From Tangfeifania sp. (GTDB taxonomy: Bacteria; Bacteroidota; Bacteroidia; Bacteroidales; Prolixibacteraceae): a stretch of 5,556 nucleotides of DNA. Location: contig JAGYMR010000195.1 in NCBI GenBank assembly GCA_018400515.1, positions 1-5,556 on the forward strand. The letters run 5' to 3'. Below are positions 1-5,318 of the stretch, piece after piece (within the stretch, counting starts at the first letter, position 1; every line of letters begins with the position of its first letter). Position numbers and translations under genes: made by a program. The notes below the pieces were generated by a model. It did not search any database. It saw only the letters and a program-made list of their open reading frames with translations, and was not told the origin of the DNA.

Positions 1-49
1 AAAACAGCAACAGAATCCAGGGCATTAGAAAAAGATAATTGTTTTTCAT
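1..49 (-). CDS. 5' end of a secreted or membrane protein gene, cut by the window edge
   Basis: An ATG at 49-47 on the minus strand opens a frame that stays open to the window edge and reads MKNNYLFLMPWILLLF. A short polar, basic start followed by a strongly hydrophobic stretch is what a Sec signal peptide (or lipoprotein signal) looks like. No cleavage site is visible because the gene leaves the window. The start lies 303 nt after the stop of the SusD remnant on the same strand, which is where the next gene of a SusC/SusD locus (a SusE/F-like binding protein, a glycoside hydrolase or a sulfatase) often sits. That role is inferred from position only; the family cannot be recognised from 16 residues. 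The A-rich stretch before the ATG has no Shine-Dalgarno sequence, as is usual in Bacteroidota. Confidence 0.6.
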   Translation of the reverse strand, partial: MKNNYLFLMPWILLLF

Positions 50-352: not shown

Positions 353-598
353 CTAGTCCCCCCATTCGGGATTTTGATCAAGATTCGGATTCAGGATGAC
401 CTCACGCCGGGGCAGGGGTTTTAAATAGTGTTTTGCCGGGTCAAATTCCCTTTTCGAAGCATCTTCCACAATAATATATCCGTCGGCGTCGAAATTGGCA
501 TCAAGGCCGGCCCATCGTGGATCGGTTTCATATTGAGTGCCTTTATATTTAACACCAAGCAGGGGTTCAGGCAATTCAAATTCGGCTGTTTTCCACCG
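353..598 (-). pseudogene. C-terminal remnant of a SusD/RagB-family outer-membrane glycan-binding lipoprotein
   Basis: On the minus strand from about 598 to the TAG at 355-353 the frame reads some 81 codons that match the end of SusD-family proteins. It opens with RWKTAEFELPEPLLG, like the 'DLxRWK' segment that follows the family's ERR-E-L-x-EGHR region. It continues with DPRWAGL and DGYIIVEDA, then FDPAKHYLKPLP, and ends NPNLDQNPEW, the counterpart of the usual 'YLxPIPxxEixxNPNLxQNPGW' ending. Intact SusD proteins are around 450-600 residues, begin with a lipoprotein signal, and cap a SusC TonB-dependent transporter at the cell surface. Here the lipoprotein signal, the TPR helices and most of the binding domain are missing. 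Upstream the frame runs into a sigma factor gene in another frame. A TTG at 574-572 could in principle start translation, but nothing suggests a functional product. The assignment rests on motif recognition, not on a search. Confidence 0.85.
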
Positions 599-938
599 GC
601 TTTGCCATTGCGTATTCCCGAGCGGTGGAAAGCTTCCGGATCTCTTCCTTCAGAGTTTGATTGTTTAAACGGCTTCGGAGTTCATTCAGCAAAAGATTCC
701 GGGTTATCGTGAAAATAAAGGAATTGAATGTTTCGGAAGATTTAATTTTTTTACGGTTTTTCCAGATCTTCAGAAAAACTTCCTGAAGAATATCATCAAT
801 GCCATCCTCGATTTTCAAGAATGATCTGGAAAAATTATATAAGCGCGGATAGTAGTAATCGAACAATTCGCGGAGTGGGGCATCATCGTCGCGCGCCAAT
901 CCGGCAATTATTCTTTCCAGGTTCAGCTTGTCAGCCAT
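576..938 (-). pseudogene. truncated ECF sigma-70 factor: region 2 kept, region 4 lost
   Basis: The frame from ATG 938-936 to TGA 578-576 gives 120 residues. Residues about 17-86 are a good sigma-70 region 2: LFDYYYPRLYNFSRSFL, then DDILQEVFLKIWKN (49-61), the core-binding and -10-recognition helices, then FIFTITRNLLLNELR. After a linker (LKEEIRKLSTAREYAMAKPVE) the protein stops at about 120 residues. Family members of about 180-200 residues continue into the helix-turn-helix of region 4, which binds the -35 element. Instead, the DNA switches to a SusD reading frame (see 353-598). The open frame extends upstream to 1229, but that part runs through a terminator and has no family match, so 938 is the better start; a TACTTTTG box sits 21 nt before it. 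In Bacteroidota such sigma factors usually pair with a FecR-type anti-sigma and control an adjacent susC/susD pair; neither an anti-sigma nor a susC is present. Loss of region 4 should abolish normal promoter recognition. Confidence 0.85.
590..598 (-). other. deletion junction between sigma factor and susD sequences
   Basis: The minus-strand bases CGGTGGAAA fit both parents. In the sigma frame they lie within codons for P-V-E-N, in the SusD frame they are R-W-K of the RWKTAE motif. Sigma-like coding is convincing upstream of this point and SusD-like coding downstream, with a frame change between them. The exact breakpoint cannot be fixed without an intact relative; this is the best estimate and could be off by some tens of bases. 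Confidence 0.55.
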
Positions 939-959: not shown

Positions 960-967
960 CAAAAGTA
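960..967 (-). promoter_or_regulatory. Bacteroidota-type -7 box for the truncated sigma gene
   Basis: On the minus strand TACTTTTG matches the Bacteroidota primary-sigma -7 consensus TAnnTTTG exactly and ends 21 nt before the ATG at 938, implying a leader of about 15 nt. No TTTG -33 box is seen at the expected 19-21 nt spacing, which weakens the call. The sequence is AT-rich, so a chance match is possible. Confidence 0.4.
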
Positions 968-1286: not shown

Positions 1287-4200
1287 CTACGGGTCGATCA
1301 CCACGGTCCGTCCCTTTACATCTTCTCCCGAATAGAGGAGCACCCGGTACATTCCTGCAGCAAGTCCGCGGAGATCCAGGTCCAGGTTATGAACTCCCGG
1401 TCCCTTTTCCCGGGGCCTGAATATCCGGAGGGTTTGTCCCGTCGTATTAATGAGCCTTAATTCCACATCCTCCCGGTTACCAGTGGCGTAGGTGACCCTG
1501 AAAGAACCATTGCTCGGATTGGGATAAAGGTTCAGGAATTCGAACATACTGCCGGATGCTTCTCCCAGTTGGTTCAGGGAAGAAATAACCGTATCGGGAG
1601 AAGCCACATCGATCTTTCCGGAGAAAACCTCATTCCCTTCTGCATCAAAAAGGGCACATCCGATTTCGGGCAGGTCCCCTTCCACCACCAGGTTAAATGT
1701 GGGAGAGCCCTTCCCTTCGGCCGGGGTCCAGGGACATGACAGGTCAAAGAATGCATTGTGTTTTCCCATGTAGGCTGCCCCTGGATGAACCACGCGGCCA
1801 TCATCATCGCAATCACCCCCGCCTGCCGCGATGGCAAAAAACCTGGACTCCCCGCCGAGGACTTCTTCATTAAAGAATCCAAACGAAACATACTTAACTT
1901 TTTCCGTAATATTAGTGGTTAATTCAGGTTTCACACGCACGGCCACCAGTTTTTTTCCAATATCCGCCTGGTCAATTTCAACACCCACATCGACCAGCGG
2001 TTTCCGGTTCCAGTTGAATTCAAAGCAACACTTCGTCCCATCGCATTTTTGCACACAAACGGTCACCGTTCCTTTGTAGTTGCTGGAGATCAGACTGAAC
2101 TGCATCTCGTTCACAGCTCCGGGACTGAGCGACCCCGTAGCGGGGATGGACGTGGCATTCCAGTTTTGCGAAGAGGTTGCTCCATCAATTATCAGGTTGC
2201 CGGGGTTGAAGTTCCCGGATGGGTTGGCGCTGATCGTCACGGAACAGATGGGCGAAGCCGGATCCAGGTTGGTAATGTCAAAGGTCCCTACCAATGTGCC
2301 CCAATAGGGCCATTTGGGTTTCAGTTTGAAATCGACCTGGGCACAACAATCGGATGGAGGAGGATCCTGGGCTTTGCAATCCATTCTGATCTGCTGCTCA
2401 CAAACTTCCCCGTTTGTTAAATGAATCACATAGTTCACCGCGACGATACCCGTGGAATCCGGCGAGACACAGGTAAGGAGATCGATGGCACAGCCGTTTG
2501 CATCAAAGGTATGGGTGGTTTGTCCGGCAAAGCCGGCGGGTATGCTCCCGCAATTCCAGCTTGCTGAGGAAAACGTTCCGTTGCTGACGGTCGCCACAAC
2601 GGAATCCACTTCACATTCCGTGACCAGGCGCGCACAGCACTCCCCCAGGTCCGGATCCTGCACCGCTTCCACCTTGATATTCTCACAGCACTTGCCCGTC
2701 CCCTCTGAATCCACGGTAAGGCATACGGGAGGCGCAGCAATGGGGGTCAGCGCCACCGACTGGGGCGCTCCGTCAAGCAGGAAACTGGAAGTTGAAACGG
2801 CAGCAAAATCATTGCAGGCTTTTTGTTGCTCAGGGGCACCTGCGGGAACGGTTACATCGAATTCCTCCTGAAGAGAGATTCCGGGCCCCAGCAGAAAGGA
2901 ACCATAGGTCATGCGCACATTCTGGTCCACAGCCGATCCCCAGCTGGAAGAGTTACAACCGGCAGTAACTCCGAACCCCGGCAGGCAGACATTCTGACCG
3001 CCGGCATAGCTGAGGGTTACCGGCGGAGCCGTAGCAGCAGGCAGCAACGAGGTGGTGTGGTTCCCTCCGTAGTTCAGATCAAACTGGCTCCCCCGGGAAG
3101 TGCTCCGGTCGAGCACCAGCCAGTCATCGGTACCGTCGTTGCGGGCCAGAAGGTCGACCAGGCCGACATCCGTAACCGGCACGTTGGAGGTATTTTTATA
3201 ATTCAGCCGAAAACGGGCGGTACCTCCGGCATTCACAGTGCCGGATGATGCGAAGCCGGATCCGCTTCCGGCACTCACCTGCTTTTTTACTTCCTGTCCA
3301 AAGCTGGCAACTACCAGCACATGGGCTGTGTTAGAGGTAACAGCCGAAGCCAGGTTGCCTCCCGAAATTTCATATTGATTGGGAGTCACTCCCGGCATGG
3401 CCGTGCTGTCAACCCTCACATCAAATTCGATAAAATGGAAGGGCAGTCCCCAGGTGCCGTAATAACCACAGTACCCCACGTAAAACAGCTGGCAGTCGGA
3501 ATCAATATCCGGAAGCGACCATTGAAGGTTGTTTCCGTTATGGTTGGGAGAAACGCCGCCCCAGGAAGTAGCCCCGGCCGGTATATTGCCATTCCCTGCA
3601 CAAGAGGGATTGTAATCATTGATGGTATAATAGGTTTCATTCCCCACGTAAGTAAAATTGCTGTGCAGCGCATCCTGAATGGTGGCACCAGAGATATCAG
3701 CGCTTCCAATGTTCTGCACCCGCAGCCGGAAACGCAAAACATCGCCCGGTTCATAACTGTCTTCAGGAGAGCAGACCTCCTTCAGGACACACGGTTTGGG
3801 TTCTCCTTCCGCCACAGTAAATGAAACACAGGCATCCTGCAGAGTGAGATTGTTAGCCAAACCATCAAAGGAGGCGCAGTTTTCGACGACCGTTCCGGGG
3901 GGATTGGGCTGCACGGTAAAATAGATGTACATATTGATCCAGTCTCCCGCCGGCAGGGAGCCGGTCATTTGCCACTGCAGATCATTCACCGTAAACCCGA
4001 GGGACCCTGAATCAAAAAAGTTGGTATTAATTTGGGAAGCGATGGTATTGCCCCCTGAATTGGCCGTCAATGCCATGGTGGTTGTGGAGCTGCCGCCGAA
4101 TACCCTGACACTGTTGACAGAAACACCGGAGGGGACCACATCTTCTATATTGAAAGCAGACAACGCCCCTGTGCCGGTATTCTTGAAAGCAATCCGGTAA

Positions 4201-5318
4201 TAGCCGTTGCATCCCGGTACACGGTTGGTCATATAAACGTATTTGCGGAAAAAAGCACTGGTATCAACAGTCACCTGTCCCACTTCAATGCAGGTTTCGT
4301 TGCTGGTATGTGCCACCTGCTGGCCACACATTTCTCCGTCAAGAGTGGCCTCATTGTTGATAAAAGTCCCATTGGGAAAGGAACCCGCCGGATAATACAC
4401 GGTAATGTCGCAGGAATAATAGGCCCAGGGGGTGGCTGCATCAAGGAGTCCACCGTTGGGCGACCAGCTGAAGGTATTTCCGGAGAGGGGCGGAGTTACG
4501 CCACAACTGCTGCTGACAAATACAGCCCCCGGAGGAAGCACATCGGTAACCACCGCGTTGTTCATATTTTGCTGACCAACCACATTCCCGTAAAACGGGC
4601 TCTTCTTTACCACCGACAACCGGTAAGTTACCGTGTCTCCCTCGGCCATCACATAACCGCAACTGCCTCCGTTGGGATTCACTACCGGCCCCGATATGAT
4701 CGACTTGCTCACCTCCCAGGGATTCTCAGCAATGGCGGTTGTACTTACATAAGGGGTATAGTTCCACTGATCATTGATCCGGATACCGGCCCGGTTGCGG
4801 GCCGCATCGCCATTGCAGGTGGTTCCTTCCGGGAACCTGACAACAATGGTAAACGATCCCGAAGCCGCACTTCCCGGGGGCAACGAATTTAAGGAGTAAG
4901 TAACCGTCTGCCCCGAAATATTGACGGTGGGCGTGACTCCGTTCACCGGTGAGGGGGTGGGCACGGACACTACATCCAGCGTGCCCGGCACCTCATCCTG
5001 AACGACAATGTTGGTTGCGCCCGCCGGGGCAGAAAACATAATGGTGTAACTAAAATTCACACCGCTCTGAATGGAGGTGTTGCTGACGATCTTTTTCAGG
5101 AAGTAGCCGTTGCCGTTCCATTCAGCCTCATTGGCATTCTGCTGGGCTGAGCCCGTAAAAGGCATCAAAAAAATTGCTGCCAGCAAAATGACCCCCCGGG
5201 TCAAAAAACCAAACAGAGGGTTAAATTCCCTCTTTCGTTTCCTGTCAGGCATTCGCCCGACATCCCTTTTAGGGTTATCCTTTTCAGGAATGCGTGTGTA
5301 GTTGAAAGTGTTGTTCAT
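1287..5318 (-). CDS. large modular T9SS-exported surface protein with DUF11-like repeats
   Basis: This is an intact gene of 1343 residues, most likely a secreted or cell-surface-attached protein; its ligand is unknown. Residues 1-58 look like a signal peptide with a long basic n-region (MPDRKRKREF at 23-32), a hydrophobic core at about 42-54 (GVILLAAIFLMPF) and likely cleavage at TGSA/QQ. About five DUF11-like beta-sandwich repeats follow, at roughly 72-195, 200-347, 350-503, 505-670 and 674-868. They are recognised by the recurring order 'K-x-V... G-x-x-x-x-(Y/F)-x-(I/L) ... V-x-D-x-(V/L)-P-x-G ... N-x-A', for example TDVLPPGAVFVSS and IEDVVPSGVSV. Residues 869-1105 are cysteine-rich, with CC pairs at 877, 894, 991 and 1097. 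Residues 1108-1240 form a domain I do not recognise, containing GGDCDDDGRVVHPGA. Residues 1262-1343 are a T9SS type A sorting domain (LYPNPSNGSF, then GLAAGMYRVLLYSG), cleaved on export and usually leading to attachment or release at the surface. The gene stands alone with its own control region and terminator. An adhesin or surface-layer role is inference. ATG 5252 is an alternative start. Confidence 0.95.
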   Translation of the reverse strand: MNNTFNYTRIPEKDNPKRDVGRMPDRKRKREFNPLFGFLTRGVILLAAIFLMPFTGSAQQNANEAEWNGNGYFLKKIVSNTSIQSGVNFSYTIMFSAPAGATNIVVQDEVPGTLDVVSVPTPSPVNGVTPTVNISGQTVTYSLNSLPPGSAASGSFTIVVRFPEGTTCNGDAARNRAGIRINDQWNYTPYVSTTAIAENPWEVSKSIISGPVVNPNGGSCGYVMAEGDTVTYRLSVVKKSPFYGNVVGQQNMNNAVVTDVLPPGAVFVSSSCGVTPPLSGNTFSWSPNGGLLDAATPWAYYSCDITVYYPAGSFPNGTFINNEATLDGEMCGQQVAHTSNETCIEVGQVTVDTSAFFRKYVYMTNRVPGCNGYYRIAFKNTGTGALSAFNIEDVVPSGVSVNSVRVFGGSSTTTMALTANSGGNTIASQINTNFFDSGSLGFTVNDLQWQMTGSLPAGDWINMYIYFTVQPNPPGTVVENCASFDGLANNLTLQDACVSFTVAEGEPKPCVLKEVCSPEDSYEPGDVLRFRLRVQNIGSADISGATIQDALHSNFTYVGNETYYTINDYNPSCAGNGNIPAGATSWGGVSPNHNGNNLQWSLPDIDSDCQLFYVGYCGYYGTWGLPFHFIEFDVRVDSTAMPGVTPNQYEISGGNLASAVTSNTAHVLVVASFGQEVKKQVSAGSGSGFASSGTVNAGGTARFRLNYKNTSNVPVTDVGLVDLLARNDGTDDWLVLDRSTSRGSQFDLNYGGNHTTSLLPAATAPPVTLSYAGGQNVCLPGFGVTAGCNSSSWGSAVDQNVRMTYGSFLLGPGISLQEEFDVTVPAGAPEQQKACNDFAAVSTSSFLLDGAPQSVALTPIAAPPVCLTVDSEGTGKCCENIKVEAVQDPDLGECCARLVTECEVDSVVATVSNGTFSSASWNCGSIPAGFAGQTTHTFDANGCAIDLLTCVSPDSTGIVAVNYVIHLTNGEVCEQQIRMDCKAQDPPPSDCCAQVDFKLKPKWPYWGTLVGTFDITNLDPASPICSVTISANPSGNFNPGNLIIDGATSSQNWNATSIPATGSLSPGAVNEMQFSLISSNYKGTVTVCVQKCDGTKCCFEFNWNRKPLVDVGVEIDQADIGKKLVAVRVKPELTTNITEKVKYVSFGFFNEEVLGGESRFFAIAAGGGDCDDDGRVVHPGAAYMGKHNAFFDLSCPWTPAEGKGSPTFNLVVEGDLPEIGCALFDAEGNEVFSGKIDVASPDTVISSLNQLGEASGSMFEFLNLYPNPSNGSFRVTYATGNREDVELRLINTTGQTLRIFRPREKGPGVHNLDLDLRGLAAGMYRVLLYSGEDVKGRTVVIDP

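Follow-up and report, generated by a model that had tools for sequence, protein, structure and literature searches.

The locus

The window (the whole 5,556-base stretch of DNA analysed) carries on its minus strand the remains of an ECF sigma factor gene, joined directly to the end of a susD gene. The features of the locus are:

5318-1287, minus strand: gene for a DUF11-repeat protein of 1343 aa with a T9SS sorting tail (domain and profile matches)
960..967, minus strand: match to the Bacteroidota -7 promoter element, TACTTTTG, 29 bases upstream of the sigma start
576..938, minus strand: truncated ECF sigma factor ORF of 120 aa (PF04542, alignment to 193-aa relatives, residue statistics)
591..606, minus strand: junction zone between sigma and SusD (protein and DNA alignments, residue statistics)
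353..598, minus strand: tail of a SusD-family lipoprotein, the last 81 residues and stop (PF07980, identity to full-length SusD, tree)
1..49 (49-2), minus strand: possible next gene, first 16 codons, MKNNYLFLMPWILLLF, cut by the window end (translation)

The sigma ORF holds about 113-116 sigma residues, with region 2 complete, followed by a few out-of-frame susD residues and a stop; the SusD tail is read in another frame. Downstream of the susD tail and on the same strand, the possible gene at 49 has an N-terminus that looks signal-peptide-like by eye. No tRNA or known RNA was found at the junction site, and a simple scan of positions 1-1300 gave no terminator-like sites.

PMC7366714 quotes TAnnTTTG as the Bacteroidota -7 promoter consensus. 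Of the 21 sigma relatives for which the upstream region was taken, 18 have this element 26-30 bases ahead of the start, and the copy in the window appears to be intact.

The two fragments

The original prediction placed sigma-70 region 2 on the minus strand from 938 to about 600, and these coordinates hold. The Pfam family Sigma70_r2 (PF04542) matches sigma residues 25-90 with an E-value of 7.8e-14 (51.7 bits, cut-off 24), and region 2, which binds the core polymerase and the -10 element, is present. The best NCBIfam model, TIGR02985 (Sig70_bacteroi1, 2.6e-21), is covered from 4 to 91 of its 162 positions at 76.5 against 126.4 bits; the full-length score is not reached, and region 4, which binds the -35 element, is absent from the window sigma. 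A protein search returned 494 matches. Among the 120 of these listed, the top intact sigmas are 70-75% identical to the window sigma, the closest at 75%, and mostly 193 aa long, with organism names that include Draconibacterium, Mariniphaga and Prolixibacteraceae. The truncated protein itself is a singleton in this search, with one member on one contig.

At columns that are at least 95% conserved the retained sigma part has no deviations, as is the case for 61 of the 120 rows, the window's own included. Since this part is free of decay, the deletion that we discuss below looks recent, or else the fragment looks not free to drift. A second truncated relative, P0035 (135 aa, on an 845-base contig), loses its homology at about residue 115, nearly the same residue as in the window, and continues as unrelated hydrophobic sequence.

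The other half had been predicted to be the last 81 or so residues of a SusD-family protein, in a different frame at 598-353, and this is borne out. PF07980 matches the tail over profile positions 233-297 of 297, that is to its last position, at 8.6e-5 (22.7 bits, just under the cut-off of 23.1), and the SusD homolog 7bll_A in the PDB matches at 1.2e-4. Genome G018 encodes a full-length SusD whose end shares 76% identity with the tail over 79 residues (E 6e-41), and another, in G086, shares 65%. To judge by the 76% identity to a full-length SusD, the tail is clearly SusD, and the same identity rules out a chance similarity. The lipoprotein signal and N-terminal part of SusD are absent, and the sequence upstream of the tail is sigma. 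The protein similarity search of each half that had been proposed as a check thus found both sigma relatives and full-length SusDs.

The junction

Homology to SusD proteins begins at an Arg at window position 598 (query position 4 in most alignments), upstream of which the relatives read ...D(L/I)(R/M)-RWK, and DNA homology to G018 begins at 601 (query position 400). When 38 intact sigmas are aligned to the window, the alignments end at 591 (26), 579 (8), 612 (3) or 621 (1). Among the 116 sigma relatives longer than 170 aa, 94 have Ile or Val at the window's Val115 and 94 have Glu at Glu116, and all 116 have Tyr or Phe instead of Asn117. As the sigma fit runs to Glu116 (591) and SusD starts at 598, the two protein readings share 8 nt, 598-591, CGGTGGAA.

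This overlap suggests a short microhomology at the junction, with GGTGGAA at 597-591 as the candidate; had it been common to both ends, it would explain why the readings overlap. We infer the shared GGTGGAA from a parent sequence that is itself inferred, and at the corresponding place it occurs in none of the 13 sigma relatives compared at codon level.

A 19-nt inverted repeat (580-598 and 623-641, 79% complementary) straddles the junction, and within it 9 nt are perfect, TTTCCACCG/CGGTGGAAA; it could have helped a deletion or be there by chance. Long direct repeats flanking the junction were ruled out, as positions 1-1290 hold a single reported direct repeat, a 12-mer at 94 and 1212, off the junction. 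The window gave no convincing trace of FecR or SusC; with 38 proteins of each as queries, the best matches were at 0.023 (FecR) and 0.006 (SusC), both away from the junction. In a nucleotide search of the junction region against 140 Prolixibacteraceae genomes, no match among those listed spans the junction. A scan of genome contigs gave 8 loci, each of which matched one half only when compared by tblastn.

Intact relatives

We searched the same 140 genomes with the sigma. The 50 strongest matches are 43-74% identical (E 5e-29 or better), number at most two per genome, are separate from weaker paralogs (next E 1e-19) and all lie in open frames of at least 174 codons. The loci of 40 of these 50 were examined, with genes labelled by similarity to the ORFs of loci L071 and L108, to which those of L073 and L077 were added for SusD. 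Pfam confirms FecR, SusC (CarbopepD_reg_2, Plug, STN) and SusD in L071 and L108, although the STN of L071 falls below the cut-off. FecR and then SusC follow the sigma on the same strand in 40/40 loci, and SusD follows SusC in 38. Two loci depart from this: L076 stops at a contig edge, and in L080 a 502-aa ORF (13016-14524) without a Pfam match sits in the place of SusD after SusC.

From the other end, 15 loci around the best SusD matches were examined. In 13 of them the order sigma, FecR, SusC, SusD recurs; the ECF sigma of these loci is on the strand of the tail and 6.6-7.3 kb upstream of it. Of the other two, L047 is cut by its contig, while L046, the nearest SusD relative (76%), lacks both a FecR and a sigma ORF over the 2.7 kb that precede its SusC and so counts against a universal rule of gene order. 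Both sets agree with the gene order on one strand that the original prediction took from Bacteroidota loci. Compared with the window sigma, those found upstream of the SusD relatives show an identity of only about 24-37%, and that of L060 (30%) was matched by the full-length query only. The SusC of L046 (2682-5919) lies in two overlapping frames, so it has a frameshift or a sequence error.

Applying the window's retained lengths to 38 intact templates implies a deletion of 5,970-6,745 bp (median 6,231), an estimate with an uncertainty of some tens of bases, because alignments start at different points and tails differ in length. The 5-6 kb proposed earlier is therefore slightly low against the 6.0-6.7 kb of the templates. 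Comparison with the relatives shows the missing parts to be those predicted: sigma region 4, the anti-sigma, the transporter and most of SusD.

Widening the search to 393 order-level genomes did not reveal a better intact parent, with matches in 4 and 3 of the 393 at E 1e-20 and 1e-32. At 1e-32 the sigma clade is found, among these 393 genomes, in Prolixibacteraceae only, and the best SusD outside this family is 58% identical; within it the best sigma reaches 74% and the best SusD 76%.

One operon or two

Our trees place the window sigma within the sigma-side clade (39 rows, support 100/99). The SusD tail groups with L046 as its sister (98/96), in a clade made up of 17 SusD rows (100/100); it covers just 13% of the columns in the SusD alignment, and long branches occur in several rows. 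The SusD clade includes just one of the 38 sigma-side rows, L108 (one of 37 without L080). This set of 38 leaves out L076 (contig edge) and L093 (sigma ORF not picked up), and counts the L080 ORF as SusD despite its lack of a Pfam match. The sigma clade and the SusD clade thus appear usually to sit in different operons.

The intact operon L108 brings together a sigma and a SusD of the window's two clades. Its sigma is 49% identical to that of the window; its SusD is 42% identical to the tail and is not the nearest relative of the tail. The proposed search for an intact locus matching both fragments therefore succeeded at the level of clades, but gave no close intact parent, and the two clades are usually apart.

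The proposed deletion and its alternatives

We propose that the window is the scar of a single deletion that took about 6.2 kb out of one sigma-FecR-SusC-SusD operon, made by illegitimate recombination at a short microhomology, and put the probability of this reading at about 0.65. A break in the sigma linker between regions 2 and 4 would have been joined to the last 82 codons of susD, with illegitimate recombination at the microhomology making the join. Sigma region 4, the FecR anti-sigma gene, the SusC transporter and most of SusD would have gone with it, so that the locus would be left with no working sigma, sensor or transporter. The sigma promoter element remains, and the possible next gene starts (at 49) about 0.9 kb downstream of it. 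A residual transcript may still arise from the old sigma promoter, the response to substrate having been lost, and transcription from it into the gene at 49 is possible.

The window agrees with the ECF sigma/FecR anti-sigma/SusC-SusD (TonB-dependent) operons of Bacteroidota in order, orientation, region-2 family and SusD C-terminus. Unlike the intact operons, it keeps only about 113 sigma and 81 SusD residues, and the ends that are otherwise separated by FecR and SusC are joined directly. Pseudogenes derived by deletion at short microhomologies are a known kind in bacteria. The window resembles them in its clean join, short overlap, same strand and undecayed sigma part. It differs in that its microhomology is putative, and in that the 9-nt inverted repeat also flanks the join. 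The loss is nothing unusual for so common an operon type: one of the bacterium's many sigma-controlled nutrient-uptake operons seems to be gone, apparently caught soon after the event. It illustrates that a single step can be enough to remove a sigma-controlled SusCD operon, with its promoter left reading toward downstream sequence.

Other events could have produced the same join. A bigger deletion or rearrangement may have fused the sigma of one operon to the susD of another, for example between tandem operons. The usual separation of the two clades speaks for this, as do the second FecR-SusC pairs found after the sigma-clade operon in L078, L080 and L096; in L096 a distantly related SusD (37-38% identical) is encoded on the same strand, some 14 kb downstream from the sigma ortholog. 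That said, L108 shows that the pairing is possible within one operon, and with cargo as variable as that of the sigma-clade operons, a rare SusD type is unsurprising. We consider a cross-operon event unlikely, though deserving of real weight, and prefer the deletion in one operon because it needs fewer assumptions. The earlier claim of a single deletion, from inside the sigma gene to near the end of susD, thus stands as the simplest account, while its confinement to a single operon is likely rather than certain, as L108 alone among the sigma-side loci in the tree pairs both clades.

The join could also be an artefact of assembly or amplification that fused two real fragments. The window is a single 5,556-base contig, the protein search gave no second copy of the truncated protein, and an inverted repeat straddles the junction, all of which a chimeric contig would accommodate. 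However, the candidate overlap is only about 7-8 nt, and assembler word lengths are far above this. In addition, a random breakpoint would enter a susD gene on the same strand in only about 0.5% of cases (median of 60 genomes, maximum 1.6%), by a rough arithmetic that uses first-look counts of susD candidates and an assumed gene length of 1.65 kb. As sigma and SusD both find their best matches in Prolixibacteraceae, a join of two unrelated organisms is ruled out, and a chimera in general seems to us quite improbable. We give hardly any credence to the idea that the truncated sigma, with region 2 only, has been kept as a working small protein. The absence of decay, the intact promoter element and the similar truncation point of P0035 would be in keeping with it, but an ECF sigma without region 4 does not recognise the -35 element, every one of the 50 strongest sigma matches in the 140 genomes lies in a much longer frame, and a recent deletion accounts equally well for the absent decay.

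A proposed head and cargo in the intact operons

To compare the operons gene by gene we hand-picked 14 of the 38 sigma-side loci, leaving out near-copies and more distant loci, and used 13 SusD-side loci. On the sigma side, mean identity is 0.64 for sigma, 0.53 for FecR and 0.57-0.59 for SusC residues 1-120, against 0.20-0.29 for SusC beyond residue 360 and 0.23 for SusD. The pattern is reversed on the SusD side, with 0.28 for sigma, 0.29 for FecR and 0.32-0.33 for the SusC N-terminus, against 0.30-0.45 further along SusC and 0.47 for SusD. These identities suggest a conserved head (sigma, FecR and part of the SusC N-terminus) and an exchangeable cargo of barrel and SusD (L071-L110, L048-L060), and head and cargo seem to have separate histories, which would explain why the pairing of sigma and SusD clades varies. 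Barrel and SusD are unrelated from one sigma-side locus to the next, and on the SusD side it is the other way round. The contrast is partly built in, because the loci were chosen for similarity in either sigma or SusD, and faster divergence of the cargo could add to it.

More independent evidence for separate histories comes from L108 and from the scattered positions of SusDs in the tree. The head of L108 is closer to the sigma side than to the SusD side (sigma 0.44 against 0.28, FecR 0.40 against 0.31, SusC residues 61-120 0.42 against 0.34), SusC residues 1-60 are neutral (0.32 against 0.30), and the barrel and SusD go with the SusD side (SusD 0.48 against 0.27). On this comparison, L108 is a hybrid locus.

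A bolder idea is that in Prolixibacteraceae the sigma-FecR-STN head moves about as a control module and has time and again been attached to unrelated SusC barrels and SusDs, through recombination in the conserved N-terminal region of SusC (about residues 120-360). The window would then be a failed or collapsed exchange and not the simple decay of one operon. We regard this as speculative and rather improbable for the window. A search for literature on SusCD deletions, pseudogenes, diversification or recombination found nothing on point among the papers listed. The results suggest that the exchange of head and cargo is a more interesting by-product of this work than the loss itself; a conserved regulatory head with exchangeable transporter cargo bears on how nutrient sensing is rewired in these bacteria.

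The neighbouring gene

The best relative of the 1343-aa gene (1287-5318) is 72% identical; this match does not by itself place the contig, because Prolixibacteraceae was the only group searched for it. Among the neighbours of 10 of its relatives there was neither a sigma nor a SusD-tail match, so synteny gave no support for the position of the locus. The relatives differ from one another in how many copies they have of a repeat of about 110 residues, and query residues 876-983 match one such gene several times.
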